A DNA stretch of 64,000 bases from Bacteroidota bacterium. Its GTDB lineage: Bacteria; Bacteroidota; Ignavibacteria; UBA10030. A model generated the notes under the pieces. The model did no database searches. It was not told where the DNA came from and saw only the letters and a program-made list of their open reading frames with translations. Below are positions 8,392 to 13,032 of this stretch, one piece after another (the first letter of the stretch is position 1; each line of letters begins with the position of its first letter). The stretch is taken from NCBI GenBank assembly GCA_026416125.1, contig JAOAFT010000002.1, positions 1-64,000 of the forward strand. The letters are read 5' to 3'. The translations under genes and the position numbers were made by a program.

Positions 8392-8466
8392 CGGGGTGTA
8401 GCTCAGCCCGGCTAGAGCACCTGCCTTGGGCGCAGGGGGTCGGAGGTTCGAATCCTCTCACCCCGA
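8392..8466 (+). tRNA. tRNA-Pro (anticodon TGG)
   Basis: Full cloverleaf: acceptor CGGGGTG pairs with CACCCCG (discriminator A at 8466). The D arm is GCTC/GAGC, the anticodon stem CCTGC/GCAGG has loop CTTGGGC (anticodon 8427-8429), and the T arm GGAGG/CCTCT has TTCGAAT. The 3' CCA is not encoded. Confidence 0.97.
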
Positions 8467-8531
8467 CAGAACTTAGCGCAGATCAATAGAAGTTCTTTCC
8501 TAATTTTCCAACAATAACCTCAATAAACCTG

Positions 8532-8560
8532 TTGACAAATAGCAAGAAATTCTCTACAAT
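8532..8560 (+). promoter_or_regulatory. Consensus sigma-70 promoter
   Basis: TTGACA at 8532-8537 and TACAAT at 8555-8560 with exactly 17 nt between, 70 nt upstream of the TPR-repeat gene. This is a housekeeping-type promoter for 8631-12678. The ribosome binding site AAAGGAT lies about 8 nt before the ATG. Confidence 0.75.
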
Positions 8561-8630: not shown

Positions 8631-11324
8631 ATGGCAAAAGGGCAAGAAATTCCTCGGAGTGCCGAGCAATTAAAAGAAGTTGCAACGTACCTAAAACTTG
8701 CTGACAAGTTAGTGAGAGAAGGAAACTACGTTGCAGCGCTTGAAGAAATTAAAAAAGCACGTGCAAAAGACCCTCGAAATCTTTACGCACTCGCATACGA
8801 AGAACGAGTTCGTTCCCTTGTAACTCAGCAAAAAGCTTCAGAAGGAACCCCTCAACCTTCAGGGCCTCAACCAATTCCTGCTGCCCTCGAACACATTTCA
8901 AATCTTGCTATTGTTGAAGCACAACGTTCTGCTGCCGTTGCTGCAAAGCAAGAGCAAGAAATGCTCTTACGCAAAAAGGAAGAAGAGGAACGGCGAAAAC
9001 AAGAAGAAATGAGGAGGAAGGCCATCGAAGCAAAAATTCAGGCCTTCCTCCAACGTGCCATGGAGTACGAAGCAAAAGGTGAATACAATCGTGCTCTTGA
9101 TGAAATTACTCGCGCTTATCTCCTTGAACCTGCGAATGAGAAAATTCATGAATTAGAAAATCGAATACTTCGTGCACAAGAAGAAGCACGTGCCCGAGAG
9201 GAAGCAGAACGCCAGCGTCGCCAACAAGAAGAAGAACGACGACGTCAAGAAGCAATTAAAGCACAACTTGCTCGACTCCAACAAGAAAAGGAAGAAAAAC
9301 GACGAAAAGAAGAGGAAGCACGCAAAGCAGCTCAACAACAGAAAATTAAACAATACCTCCAGCATGCCCATGAGCTATACTCTGCAGGACACTATGACGA
9401 AGCACTGAGTGAATTGGCATTTGTTGTCGTCGTTGATCCTCTTAATGAAGAAGTCCTTGCTCTTGAACGAAAAATTCGCGAAGCACAAGAACTTGAACAA
9501 CAAAAACAACTTGAACTCTATCGAAAACGAGAAGAGGAACAGCGCAAAAAACGAGAAGCCATTCTTGCTGCAATTCAGAAACATATTGAAAATGCTGAAC
9601 GCTTAGCAGCGCAGGGAAAATTTTCAGATGCACTCCGCGTTATTACTCGAGCGTATGTTCTCGATCCTATCAACGAAGACCTTCAGAATTGTGAAAAGAA
9701 AATTCTTGCCGCACAGGAAGAAGCTGCACGGAAAGCTGAAGAACAACGTCGAATCGAAGAGGAAATGATTCGGAAGCAACAAGAGGAAGAACTCCGACGC
9801 CTAGAGCAACTCGAACGAGAACGAGCACTCCTTGGTGAGAGTGCTGAATCGGAAGCTAAACGTCGAGCTGACAAAGAGCGCATCTTCCAATACCTAACGA
9901 AAGCGAGAAAGTACCTCAACGAAGGTCGATTCGAAGATGCACTTGGCGAAGTTGCGCTCGCATTTATCATCAATCCCTTTGATGAAGATGTGAAGCACAT
10001 GGAGCAAGACATTCTCGCTGCACAAGAAAAGAAAAAAGCAGAAGAGGAAGCACTTCTTAAACAAAAAGAGGAACTCATTACTCCTATTGACAATACAGCA
10101 GAAAAAATAGCAGCACACCTCGAGGAAGCATCTCGTTTAGCTTCAGAACATGAGTACGGAAAAGCTCTCGATGAAATTGCAAAAGCGTTCCTCCTCGATC
10201 CATTAAACGAAACGATTCAAAAATTTGAAGCTCAGATACAACAAGAATTTCATGAATATCAGGAAGAACAACGTCGTAAACACGAAGAGGAACTCCGTGC
10301 AACAGCGATTCGTGGACATATCCAACGCGCAAAAGACTTCTTAGAACATGAAGCGTTCGATGAAGCACTTGCTGAAGTTGCAGGTGGGTATGCATACGAC
10401 CCAAACAACCAAGAACTCATCGAATTAGAAAAAACTATTAAGAATGCATACATCCAGTGGCAAGAACGAAAAGAACAAGAAGACCGAAAACGACAACTTG
10501 ATGAGATGATTCTTACGGCAAAGAAATACCTCGCAAAACATGAATTCGAGAATGCTCTCATGGAAGTGACAAGAGCAATGGTACTCGACCCCGAAAATGC
10601 TGAACTGAAAGCCCTCGAAGCAGAAATTGAACAAGCTCAAGAAGAAGACAGAAAACGTCAACAACAAGAAGAAAATGCAAAAGCTATAAAGAAAATAATT
10701 TTCTTGGCAAAAGAAGCTCTTATTCACCACGATTTTGATGGAGCACTGGCAGAACTTCAAAACGCACTCATTATCGATGCGACAAACGAAGAAGTGCTCT
10801 CATTAAAAAACACTATTCTTCAACAGAAAGAAGAATGGCTTAAGAAAAAAGCCATTGAAGAAAAGGAAGAAAAAGTTAAAACACACCTTCGACAAGCACG
10901 GAAACTTTTCAAAGAAAAGGTGTACGATGAAGCCCTCATCGAAATAGCTATGGGGTACGCTGTTGATCCTGAGAACGAAGAATTGAAAGCTCTCGAGGAA
11001 CAAATTATCGCTGCACAAAGCCACGAAGAACTGAAGGAAGAACAAGAAAGCTCTATTCTTGAGACACCACTTCCTGATGATGAAAAAAGTCAATTAATTT
11101 TTGTACACCTTCGTGCTGCCGAAGAATTTCAAAAGCAAAAGGAATTTGCAAAAGCACTCGATGAAATCGCTAAAGCCTACCTTATCGATCCCTTGAACAA
11201 AGAAATTAAGAAAGCAGAATCTCGCATACGCCAAAGTCAAATACGCCATGCCCAACAAACTGGACAAACACTAAAACTCATTTATCCAAATGATCAACAA
11301 GAAGCAGCGGGAGGTGGAAATTAA
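8631..11324 (+). CDS. Cytoplasmic 11-repeat TPR-like/coiled-coil protein
   Basis: 897 residues with no signal peptide or membrane segment. It contains eleven copies of a TPR-like helical hairpin. The pattern is roughly hxxAxxhhxxGxYxxALxEhxxAhxhDPxNxxhxxLExxI, with the DPxN-type turn at residues 47, 166, 269, 345, 449, 523, 590, 653, 716, 779 and 853. The N-terminal repeats are separated by long, highly charged Glu/Arg/Lys/Gln coiled-coil linkers. From residue 590 to 779 the spacing settles at exactly 63 residues. The same repeat occurs twice in the TonB protein 73 nt downstream, so the two likely bind or co-assemble. A scaffold role is inferred; no enzymatic motif is seen. Confidence 0.85.
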   Translation: MAKGQEIPRSAEQLKEVATYLKLADKLVREGNYVAALEEIKKARAKDPRNLYALAYEERVRSLVTQQKASEGTPQPSGPQPIPAALEHISNLAIVEAQRSAAVAAKQEQEMLLRKKEEEERRKQEEMRRKAIEAKIQAFLQRAMEYEAKGEYNRALDEITRAYLLEPANEKIHELENRILRAQEEARAREEAERQRRQQEEERRRQEAIKAQLARLQQEKEEKRRKEEEARKAAQQQKIKQYLQHAHELYSAGHYDEALSELAFVVVVDPLNEEVLALERKIREAQELEQQKQLELYRKREEEQRKKREAILAAIQKHIENAERLAAQGKFSDALRVITRAYVLDPINEDLQNCEKKILAAQEEAARKAEEQRRIEEEMIRKQQEEELRRLEQLERERALLGESAESEAKRRADKERIFQYLTKARKYLNEGRFEDALGEVALAFIINPFDEDVKHMEQDILAAQEKKKAEEEALLKQKEELITPIDNTAEKIAAHLEEASRLASEHEYGKALDEIAKAFLLDPLNETIQKFEAQIQQEFHEYQEEQRRKHEEELRATAIRGHIQRAKDFLEHEAFDEALAEVAGGYAYDPNNQELIELEKTIKNAYIQWQERKEQEDRKRQLDEMILTAKKYLAKHEFENALMEVTRAMVLDPENAELKALEAEIEQAQEEDRKRQQQEENAKAIKKIIFLAKEALIHHDFDGALAELQNALIIDATNEEVLSLKNTILQQKEEWLKKKAIEEKEEKVKTHLRQARKLFKEKVYDEALIEIAMGYAVDPENEELKALEEQIIAAQSHEELKEEQESSILETPLPDDEKSQLIFVHLRAAEEFQKQKEFAKALDEIAKAYLIDPLNKEIKKAESRIRQSQIRHAQQTGQTLKLIYPNDQQEAAGGGN

Positions 11325-11397
11325 TATAAGTGTTCTTTACTATTTCAAGCAGGTGAATCTACAAACATCTATATGTAACGTGAAAAAGGATTAGACG

Positions 11398-12678
11398 ATG
11401 GAGCCCCAAGAAAAATTGACAACACAGCAATTTATCATTGACCGTTTGCATGATGTTCAGAGAAAAGTTGAAAATGGTAACATTCAGGATGCTCTCGACG
11501 AACTCAAAGAAGTAAAAGCAGCAGATACAAAGAACATCTATATCATTGCACTCGAAAAACAAATCTTAAAACTGACTGATCCAAACATTACACCAGACTT
11601 CAAGCAGGAAGTTATCAAGTCACTCCCTCCAATGATCGAGCGTGCAATAAACGATTCTCAACGGCGACTTGCTGAAAAGGCACAAGAACCAAAAGACGCA
11701 AAAGAAAAAGAGGCTGCTCTTGAAAAATTGAAGAGTCAATATCTCCATCGGGCTGATGAATACGTCGAAAAAGGTGACTACGAACATGCGCTTGAAGAAA
11801 TTCGACGTATTTACATTATCGATCCAAACAATGTGGTTGCAAAAGAGTACGAACAGAAAATCGAACAACTTGCAAAACTAAAAGCAAAAGGTGAAGAAGA
11901 AAAGCTTGAATCTCAACAACCTGCTAGAGAGCTAGCACAACAGGAACCTTCTGAAGTTGAAGAGAAAAAAGGGAGCCCAAAAATTCTGGTTATTGCTGCA
12001 GCTGTCGTTGGTATCATTGCTCTCGGTGTTTGGCTCCTTACTTCAAGGTCACCACAAGAAAGTGCACCCCAACAAGAACAGCAACCAATTGCAAACGAAC
12101 AGCAAACACAAGTTCAAGCACCTATTTCAGAACAAAAAGCTCAACCTACTACAAAAGAACAGCGACAACCAGAAACAAAGCAACAACCTCAACAGCCCAG
12201 TGTAAAAACTGAGGCTAGGTCTGAACAAAAGCAACCTATAGAACAACCAAAAGTTACCACACCACAGCCACCTCAACAGCAACAGAGTACACCGCAGTTA
12301 GCAACTCAACCAGAACCCAAACCTCAGCAAACAGCTCAGGAACAAACCTCTACTCCGCCACCTGCTCCTAGTGCTGAGGAGCCACCTGCACCAAAGCCAT
12401 TTGTAGCGATTGAATCACCTCCACAAATAGTAAAGAGAGAAACACCTAAGTACCCAGAAATTGCATATCGGATGAGAATGGAGGGAAAAGTTATTGTTGA
12501 AGTTACAGTCGATCCACAAGGAAAACCTATTCAGGCAAAAATTGCCCGTAGCACAAGCGATGTATTTAACGATGCTGCGATCGAAGCAGCAATGAAATCA
12601 ACTTATAAGCCCGCGATGATGTCAACTGGTCCAGTAACTGCAAAAGTCTATGTCCCCTTTGATTTTAAGCTTCGATAA
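11398..12678 (+). CDS. TonB-family protein with cytoplasmic TPR-like repeats
   Basis: 426 residues. Residues 1-165 are cytoplasmic and hold two repeats of the type in the preceding gene (about 12-60 and 112-160). One transmembrane helix lies at about 195-215. A Gln/Pro/Glu-rich periplasmic spacer covers about 216-335. The C-terminal TonB domain (about 337-426) has ETPKYPEIAYRMRMEGKV and ends VPFDFKLR. TonB normally contacts TonB-box receptors and draws energy from ExbB/ExbD, with only a short cytoplasmic N-terminus; a repeat domain there is unusual. No exbB or exbD is in the window. Likely same operon as 8631-11324. Confidence 0.88.
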   Translation: MEPQEKLTTQQFIIDRLHDVQRKVENGNIQDALDELKEVKAADTKNIYIIALEKQILKLTDPNITPDFKQEVIKSLPPMIERAINDSQRRLAEKAQEPKDAKEKEAALEKLKSQYLHRADEYVEKGDYEHALEEIRRIYIIDPNNVVAKEYEQKIEQLAKLKAKGEEEKLESQQPARELAQQEPSEVEEKKGSPKILVIAAAVVGIIALGVWLLTSRSPQESAPQQEQQPIANEQQTQVQAPISEQKAQPTTKEQRQPETKQQPQQPSVKTEARSEQKQPIEQPKVTTPQPPQQQQSTPQLATQPEPKPQQTAQEQTSTPPPAPSAEEPPAPKPFVAIESPPQIVKRETPKYPEIAYRMRMEGKVIVEVTVDPQGKPIQAKIARSTSDVFNDAAIEAAMKSTYKPAMMSTGPVTAKVYVPFDFKLR

Positions 12679-12696
12679 TCCGCACTTCACACAACG

Positions 12697-12740
12697 AAAA
12701 AGTAAAAGCCCCGATGATAAATCGGGGCTTTTTTACTTTT
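12697..12740. terminator. Bidirectional terminator between convergent operons
   Basis: Core stem AAGCCCCGAT/ATCGGGGCTT (12706-12730, 5-nt loop) flanked by A and T tracts on either side. It ends the TPR/TonB operon on plus and the efflux operon on minus, and overlaps the stop codon of the minus gene. Confidence 0.88.
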
Positions 12741-13032
12741 ACACCATTGCCTCAATATTCCACACAAATGCATGAATCCCTTGTTCCTCAGCCTCCGCAT
12801 TAATCGCCCGGACTTTATCCAACAAAGGTTGCACGAGCTTATCATCGATAACAGTTAACACAACTGCATTGAGCCCTGGCCAGATATGTGTACCTAGATG
12901 AGGTTCACCGTTAGTACTTCCTTGACCATGGACATTGAGGAATCGAGTGTACCCACGAATTTTCAATGATTCCAATGCTTCATCTACTTCTTCAGTTATA
13001 CCATGATTATAGACAATCATTACTGCTTTCAT
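12739..13032 (-). CDS. PII-like (GlnB-fold) small protein, efflux-linked
   Basis: 97 residues with the ferredoxin-like pattern of PII-type proteins: MKAVMIVYNHGI strand, helix EEVDEALESLKI, strand GYTRFLNVHGQG, strand AVVLTVIDD and a second helix VQPLLDKVRAI. The region between strands is short and rich in Gly/His (HGQGSTNGEPHLGTH) where PII has its T-loop. It is the last gene of the TolC-adaptor-RND operon, 15 nt after the pump gene. It may sense a metal or small ligand and modulate the pump; this is inferred from fold and position only. Confidence 0.72.
   Translation of the reverse strand: MKAVMIVYNHGITEEVDEALESLKIRGYTRFLNVHGQGSTNGEPHLGTHIWPGLNAVVLTVIDDKLVQPLLDKVRAINAEAEEQGIHAFVWNIEAMV

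Follow-up and report, generated by a model that had tools for sequence, protein, structure and literature searches.

We describe a pair of adjacent genes, here called A and B, in a 64,000-nucleotide stretch of DNA (the window: positions 1 to 64,000 of contig JAOAFT010000002.1, assembly GCA_026416125.1) from a bacterium of the class Ignavibacteria, phylum Bacteroidota, whose 2.4 Mb genome is 98.65 percent complete. Protein A contains eleven hairpins of the tetratricopeptide repeat (TPR) type, and protein B is a TonB-like membrane protein that carries two copies of the same repeat on the cytoplasmic side of its membrane helix. Our preferred reading, in which confidence and doubt are about evenly matched, is that A is a cytoplasmic scaffold and that B is the unpowered, TonB-like inner-membrane tether that holds it. 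The original prediction had docked the scaffold onto a TonB energy-transfer protein, and this is the part of it that fares worst below.

A two-hairpin module common to A and B

When the repeats of A are made into a profile and searched against the protein, exactly 11 copies are detected, at 58-72 bits each. These are 34-residue helix pairs with the TPR consensus and with helices in the AlphaFold model, which places them in the TPR superfamily; in Pfam, A matches TPR_2 at 31.7 bits (cut-off 27) and also TPR_14. A has no signal, and no part of it reaches the hydrophobicity of a membrane helix, in keeping with the original description of eleven TPR-like hairpins without an export signal.

The same profile recovers two copies in B, at 18 and 51 bits, against 4.7 bits for the best of 200 shuffles of B; the Pfam TPR models match B weakly. 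The hairpins are followed by a single membrane helix (approximately residues 196-214), a Pro/Gln-rich linker and a TonB C-terminal domain (CTD; PF03544, 72 bits against a cut-off of 24.6, E 4e-20), and hydropathy and charge place them on the positively charged, cytoplasmic side of the membrane, as had been claimed. AlphaFold models the two TPR units at a predicted local distance difference test (pLDDT) score of about 85-92 and gives the C-terminal domain a TonB-CTD fold, which in fold comparison matches TonB CTD structures. Within the window's own family (f1), mean identity is 64 percent for the hairpin module, 64 percent for the CTD, 40 percent for the membrane helix and 34 percent for the linker.

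The likeness between the two proteins extends to individual repeats. By per-repeat profiles, repeat 1 of B is nearest to repeat 1 of A in 42 of 54 B proteins, repeat 2 is nearest to repeat 2 in 46 of 54, and a profile of the whole 165-residue B module, inter-hairpin helix included, aligns to A repeats 1-2 (E 2e-17). Because the hairpins pair in this way and the module aligns as a whole, B's cytoplasmic part is, as judged from sequence, a copy of A's N-terminal module. A merely generic TPR resemblance is ruled out by the pairing of B's two repeats with A repeats 1 and 2, and the repeat that had been seen in both proteins can now be described as a specific two-hairpin module.

A itself is modelled as an elongated rod of separate TPR units and not as a superhelix: its hairpins are linked by unbroken helices, the longest of 82 residues, at a mean pLDDT of 80.8 and a predicted template modelling (pTM) score of 0.29. 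A fold search with A returned general TPR proteins alone, at very low TM-scores.

We also considered, and reject, the idea that the repeat is exclusive to the pair. Whether it always co-occurs with TonB had been raised as a check, and it does not: response regulators, both in this genome and in relatives of it, begin with the same hairpin. One of these, in this genome (L003, G000:C5:32304-33314), joins an N-terminal hairpin to a receiver domain (E 6e-24), and A repeat 1 is the best match to its hairpin at 44 bits, the next reaching 22. Proteins of relatives (L023-L027) have the same plan, an N-terminal TPR hairpin, mostly of the A-repeat-1 type, and then a receiver domain. Hairpin response regulators thus resemble A and B in their N-terminal hairpin, mostly nearest A repeat 1, and differ in their receiver domain and in a far wider spread through the Ignavibacteria, which includes genomes with neither A nor B; some hairpins outside the pair are not of the repeat-1 type. 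A third protein of this genome (G000:C16:22161-22622, L141 6901-7728) matches the full two-hairpin module at E 1e-12; it is cytoplasmic and has no TonB part.

Conservation of the pair, loss of the TonB domain and the tail of A

Our survey covered 391 genomes drawn from the class Ignavibacteria, with a threshold of E 1e-10 for the B module. The module was matched in 41 genomes, three of which had A-type matches alone, leaving 38 with B; the A model matched 36. A and B occur together in 31 genomes where 3.5 would be expected (Fisher test, 5e-34, a significance that is overstated because the 391 genomes are related). At 37 of 50 B genes A lies beside B on the same strand, and three others stand at contig edges. 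The two genes are conserved neighbors. A is usually directly upstream of B, with a gap of -3 to 39 nt and frequent overlaps of 1-4 nt. The promoter and terminator from which a single operon was originally argued were both found (TTGACA-17-TACAAT, 11/12 matches, and a 12-bp stem) and are consensus matches alone; the case for a probable co-transcription of A and B rests more on the conservation of their close spacing.

The pair is patchily distributed, both genes being absent from the majority of genomes in the class. Five genomes have A without B. B without A was seen in two cases at contig edges and in five genomes of two genera (g36 and g37). Each g36/g37 genome has two TonB-bearing B paralogs (loci L119-L122, L130, L131, L133, L135, L137 and L139); one copy lies near a MalK-type ATPase and a LacI regulator, and some also near a glycosidase-like gene and a TonB-dependent receptor. 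In a phylum-wide sample of 395 genomes, matches were confined to the window's own order, with none beyond the class.

A stands next to TonB-bearing B proteins in f1 and most of family f6, and also in f9, a family of a different order; this spread makes it probable that the TonB form of B is old. In a tree of B modules, whose deep branches are weakly supported, the hairpin-only B proteins of family f5 form one clade (support 0.99), and a group from genus g26 and a set of f6 paralogs keep the membrane helix and have no TonB domain. Probably, then, the TonB part was lost at least three times. A and the hairpins were kept in f5, in g26 and beside the f6 paralogs despite this loss.

The C-terminal tail of A carries a short motif, L-K-L-(I/V)-Y, which we spotted by inspection of the alignment and counted afterwards, searching for L[KT][LM][IV]Y in the last 40 residues. 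Of the 33 A proteins that immediately precede B, 31 have it; it is absent from all 12 other A-type proteins and from the tails of 365 other open reading frames (ORFs) of the same loci. Two further motif-less A proteins come from genomes of genus g29 that have no B. The tail is predicted to be disordered (pLDDT about 35), and the motif is kept where B has lost its TonB domain or membrane helix (f5, g26). The groove of known TPR domains is a binding site for short peptides, and we therefore propose that the tail of A may dock in the hairpins of B.

Two loci show further arrangements of A-type genes. In f5 (L053 8390-17063; L107/L009) there are two tandem A-type genes, and the LKLIY tail is found solely on the copy beside B. 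Elsewhere (L118 392-2398, G308) an A-type protein encoded downstream of its B has no tail motif and is itself predicted to have a membrane helix close to the C-terminus.

Search for motor contacts in B, and comparison with known systems

In E. coli TonB, Ser16 and His20 of the membrane helix contact ExbB (PMC12215075), and they belong to the SHLS motif, with its essential histidine, that TonB and TolA have in common (PMC12204202). The membrane helix of the window's B has no histidine. Among 38 distinct B helices a histidine occurs once, at the outer edge, whereas nine of the 12 helices of ordinary TonB proteins from the same order have one. Neither exbB nor exbD was found near B; matches to PF01618 lie on other contigs of the genome, and its other two TonB_C genes stand in exbB-exbD-exbD-tonB and tolQ-tolR-tolA-like clusters. 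The search for motor genes and receptors that the original prediction had proposed thus turned up both types of cluster and 17 receptor plug domains elsewhere in the genome. Linkage of tonB to exbB/exbD is common, not obligatory.

With its C-terminal domain, its single N-in membrane helix and its Pro-rich periplasmic linker, B would be classed as a TonB by fold and topology; what its helix lacks is the motor-contacting histidine. An energised role becomes less likely because the helix has no histidine and B has no exbB/exbD neighbors, and the loss of the TonB domain in several lineages likewise speaks against the energy-transfer protein first envisaged. The proposed link from cytoplasm to outer membrane survives in part: the architecture of B would join both sides, and the energised form of that link is unsupported.

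The accompanying statement that no such link had been described was too strong, since the Agl-Glt system of Myxococcus xanthus has a comparable plan (PMC3169522, PMC5349195). There, gltJ, which encodes a membrane protein with a TonB-type tip, adjoins gltI, which encodes a 4132-aa TPR protein without a signal peptide, and GltG is a membrane protein with a cytoplasmic forkhead-associated (FHA) domain and a TonB domain (PMC3169522, PMC5349195). In both GltI/GltJ and A/B, the gene of a large TPR protein lacking a signal adjoins that of a membrane protein with one helix and a TonB-type tip; GltG, like B, joins a cytoplasmic interaction domain to a TonB domain, linking the cytoplasm to the outer membrane. 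The differences lie in the parts. GltG uses an FHA domain, whereas B has paired hairpins common with its scaffold, and a Pfam scan of A and B found no FHA. The tip of B is an ordinary TonB_C, the AgmX/PglI tail NF033768 scoring 16.3 bits, below its cut-off of 40. No AglRQS-like motor was found in the genome, as the gene context of all four above-cut-off MotA/ExbB matches marks them as Exb, Tol-like or flagellar Mot. We therefore reject membership of A and B in the Glt system: the plan matches, and the family-specific domains and the motor do not. By analogy, the pair should be filed as a putative TonB-like tether working somewhat like GltI/GltJ, neither a Glt member nor an energised TonB.

The force transducers TonB and TolA (PMC12204202, PMC12215075) share with B the TonB_C fold, the Pro-rich linker and one N-in membrane helix; B differs in its long cytoplasmic domain and in having neither the SHLS/His motif nor linked motor genes. 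Anabaena SjdR (PMC8262864) resembles B in its TonB-like topology and cytoplasmic domain, and its role is structural, not one in uptake or transport. Unlike B, SjdR has a short cytoplasmic domain of about 65 aa with no TPR and has no TonB-like tip, and it is involved in cyanobacterial septum structure (PMC8262864). A literature search for the A/B pair in Ignavibacteria returned nothing relevant.

If our reading is true, transducing force would not be the only use of TonB-type tips, which would also work as passive fasteners, and the pair would be a second design, besides Myxococcus Glt, by which the outer membrane is connected with a large TPR scaffold in the cytoplasm. The lineages in which TonB was repeatedly lost while scaffold, hairpins and tail motif were kept would then provide natural controls, and since the putative docking peptide is five residues long, docking can be tested at little cost.

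The candidate tether, its alternatives and the locus

In the arrangement that we propose, A would be an elongated cytoplasmic scaffold and B its anchor in the inner membrane. The two-hairpin module of B would have arisen through duplication of A's N-terminal module, and the TPR groove of B would probably grip the disordered C-terminus of A with its LKLIY motif. The linker and TonB_C tip of B would reach a putative partner in the outer membrane or periplasm, making B a passive cytoplasm-to-envelope tether and not a motor-driven TonB. The remaining hairpins of A would be free to gather cytoplasmic partners, possibly the hairpin-bearing response regulators. A fuller version, at the doubtful end of the possible, is that A and B make up a scaffold class of some Ignavibacteria: a cytoplasmic rod, attached through its C-terminal peptide to an unpowered tether, would gather hairpin signalling proteins and couple them to outer-membrane receptors, some lineages having kept a purely cytoplasmic rod and clip.

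Several points weigh against the tether. The five g36/g37 genomes hold two copies of B each and no A. Two A proteins adjacent to B (L124, L126) have no tail motif; the motif-less cases away from B come down to about four independent lineages, and the Fisher p of 3e-9 for this association is overstated, related genes having been counted. The missing histidine argues against motor coupling of B without excluding it. AlphaFold tends to over-predict long helices in charged sequence, and the long helices of A, with a pTM of just 0.29, may reflect this habit.

Gene neighborhoods differ among the families. In f5, A and the hairpin-only B lie with histidine kinases, receiver proteins and a PDZ-GAF-SpoIIE phosphatase; in f6, the neighbors are a TonB-dependent receptor, a LacI regulator, a MalK-type ATP-binding cassette ATPase and an extracytoplasmic function (ECF) sigma/anti-sigma pair; in f1, they are resistance-nodulation-division (RND) efflux genes, an M23 peptidase and lipoproteins, with no receptors or kinases. 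The f5 and f6 contexts, together with the presence of the same hairpin on response regulators, would suit a B that is an outside-in sensor, its TonB_C domain reading an outer-membrane receptor and its state passing through the helix to the hairpins and A, and from there to two-component or phosphatase signalling. We regard this as unlikely: the f1 neighbors are of other kinds, the f5 B proteins are unable to sense across a membrane, and our attempt to read one function from the neighborhood failed because the contexts vary by family. Contexts as varied as these are more readily explained by a general scaffold than by one particular pathway. At the f5 loci with tandem A-type genes (L053 8390-17063, L107/L009), these and the hairpin-only B stand between two-component genes and the PDZ-GAF-SpoIIE phosphatase.

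That A and B are TPR duplicates of unrelated purpose, still adjacent and not binding each other, is in our view distinctly unlikely. TPR proteins multiply readily and are many in these genomes, and B occurs without A in five of them; however, the adjacency is class-wide with start/stop overlap, A and the hairpins persist after TonB loss, and the tail motif follows adjacency to B. Most improbable is a working TonB driven by ExbBD or TolQR encoded elsewhere in the genome, with A regulating or positioning it: the genuine TonB_C domain, Pro-rich linker and N-in helix, the 17 plug domains and the complete exbB-exbD-tonB and tolQR-like clusters would allow it, but 37 of 38 B helices, the window's included, lack the histidine that most ordinary TonB proteins have and that in E. 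coli (PMC12215075) makes contact with ExbB alongside Ser16, no exbB/exbD is linked, the membrane helix is weakly conserved and the TonB part has been lost repeatedly.

In the window, A and B are flanked by a tRNA-Pro gene upstream and a convergent RND efflux operon downstream (Table 1).

Table 1. Features of the A/B locus, in window coordinates.
Feature	Position	Strand	Basis and remarks
tRNA-Pro(TGG)	8392..8467	+	ARAGORN; upstream limit, outside the A/B system
Promoter-like site TTGACA-17-TACAAT before A	8532..8560	+	Consensus scan, 11/12 matches; consensus match alone
Gene A, 897 aa, eleven TPR-type hairpins linked by long charged helices, cytoplasmic	8631..11324	+	ORF, Pfam, repeat profile, AlphaFold
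A repeats 1-2 (aa 15-182) and intervening helix, the module recurring in B	8673..9176	+	B-module profile E 2e-17, per-repeat profiles
A repeats 3-11 (aa 237-869)	9339..11237	+	Repeat profile
A C-terminal motif LKLIY (aa 881-885) in predicted-disordered tail; putative docking peptide	11271..11285	+	Motif counts, pLDDT
Gene B, 426 aa, TonB-like membrane protein with cytoplasmic hairpins	11398..12678	+	ORF, Pfam, hydropathy, AlphaFold
B cytoplasmic two-hairpin module (aa 1-165)	11398..11892	+	Profiles, AlphaFold
B membrane helix (aa 196-214), no histidine	11983..12039	+	Hydropathy
B Pro/Gln-rich periplasmic linker, weakly conserved	12046..12417	+	34 percent mean identity within family
B TonB_C domain (aa 350-425)	12445..12672	+	Pfam PF03544 E 4e-20; TonB-CTD fold
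Terminator-like site, 12-bp stem, bidirectional, common to B and convergent downstream gene	12704..12732	+	Consensus match alone

The gene at 12739-13032, by the RND efflux operon, encodes a small PG0541-family transporter-associated protein and has the bidirectional terminator in common with B.

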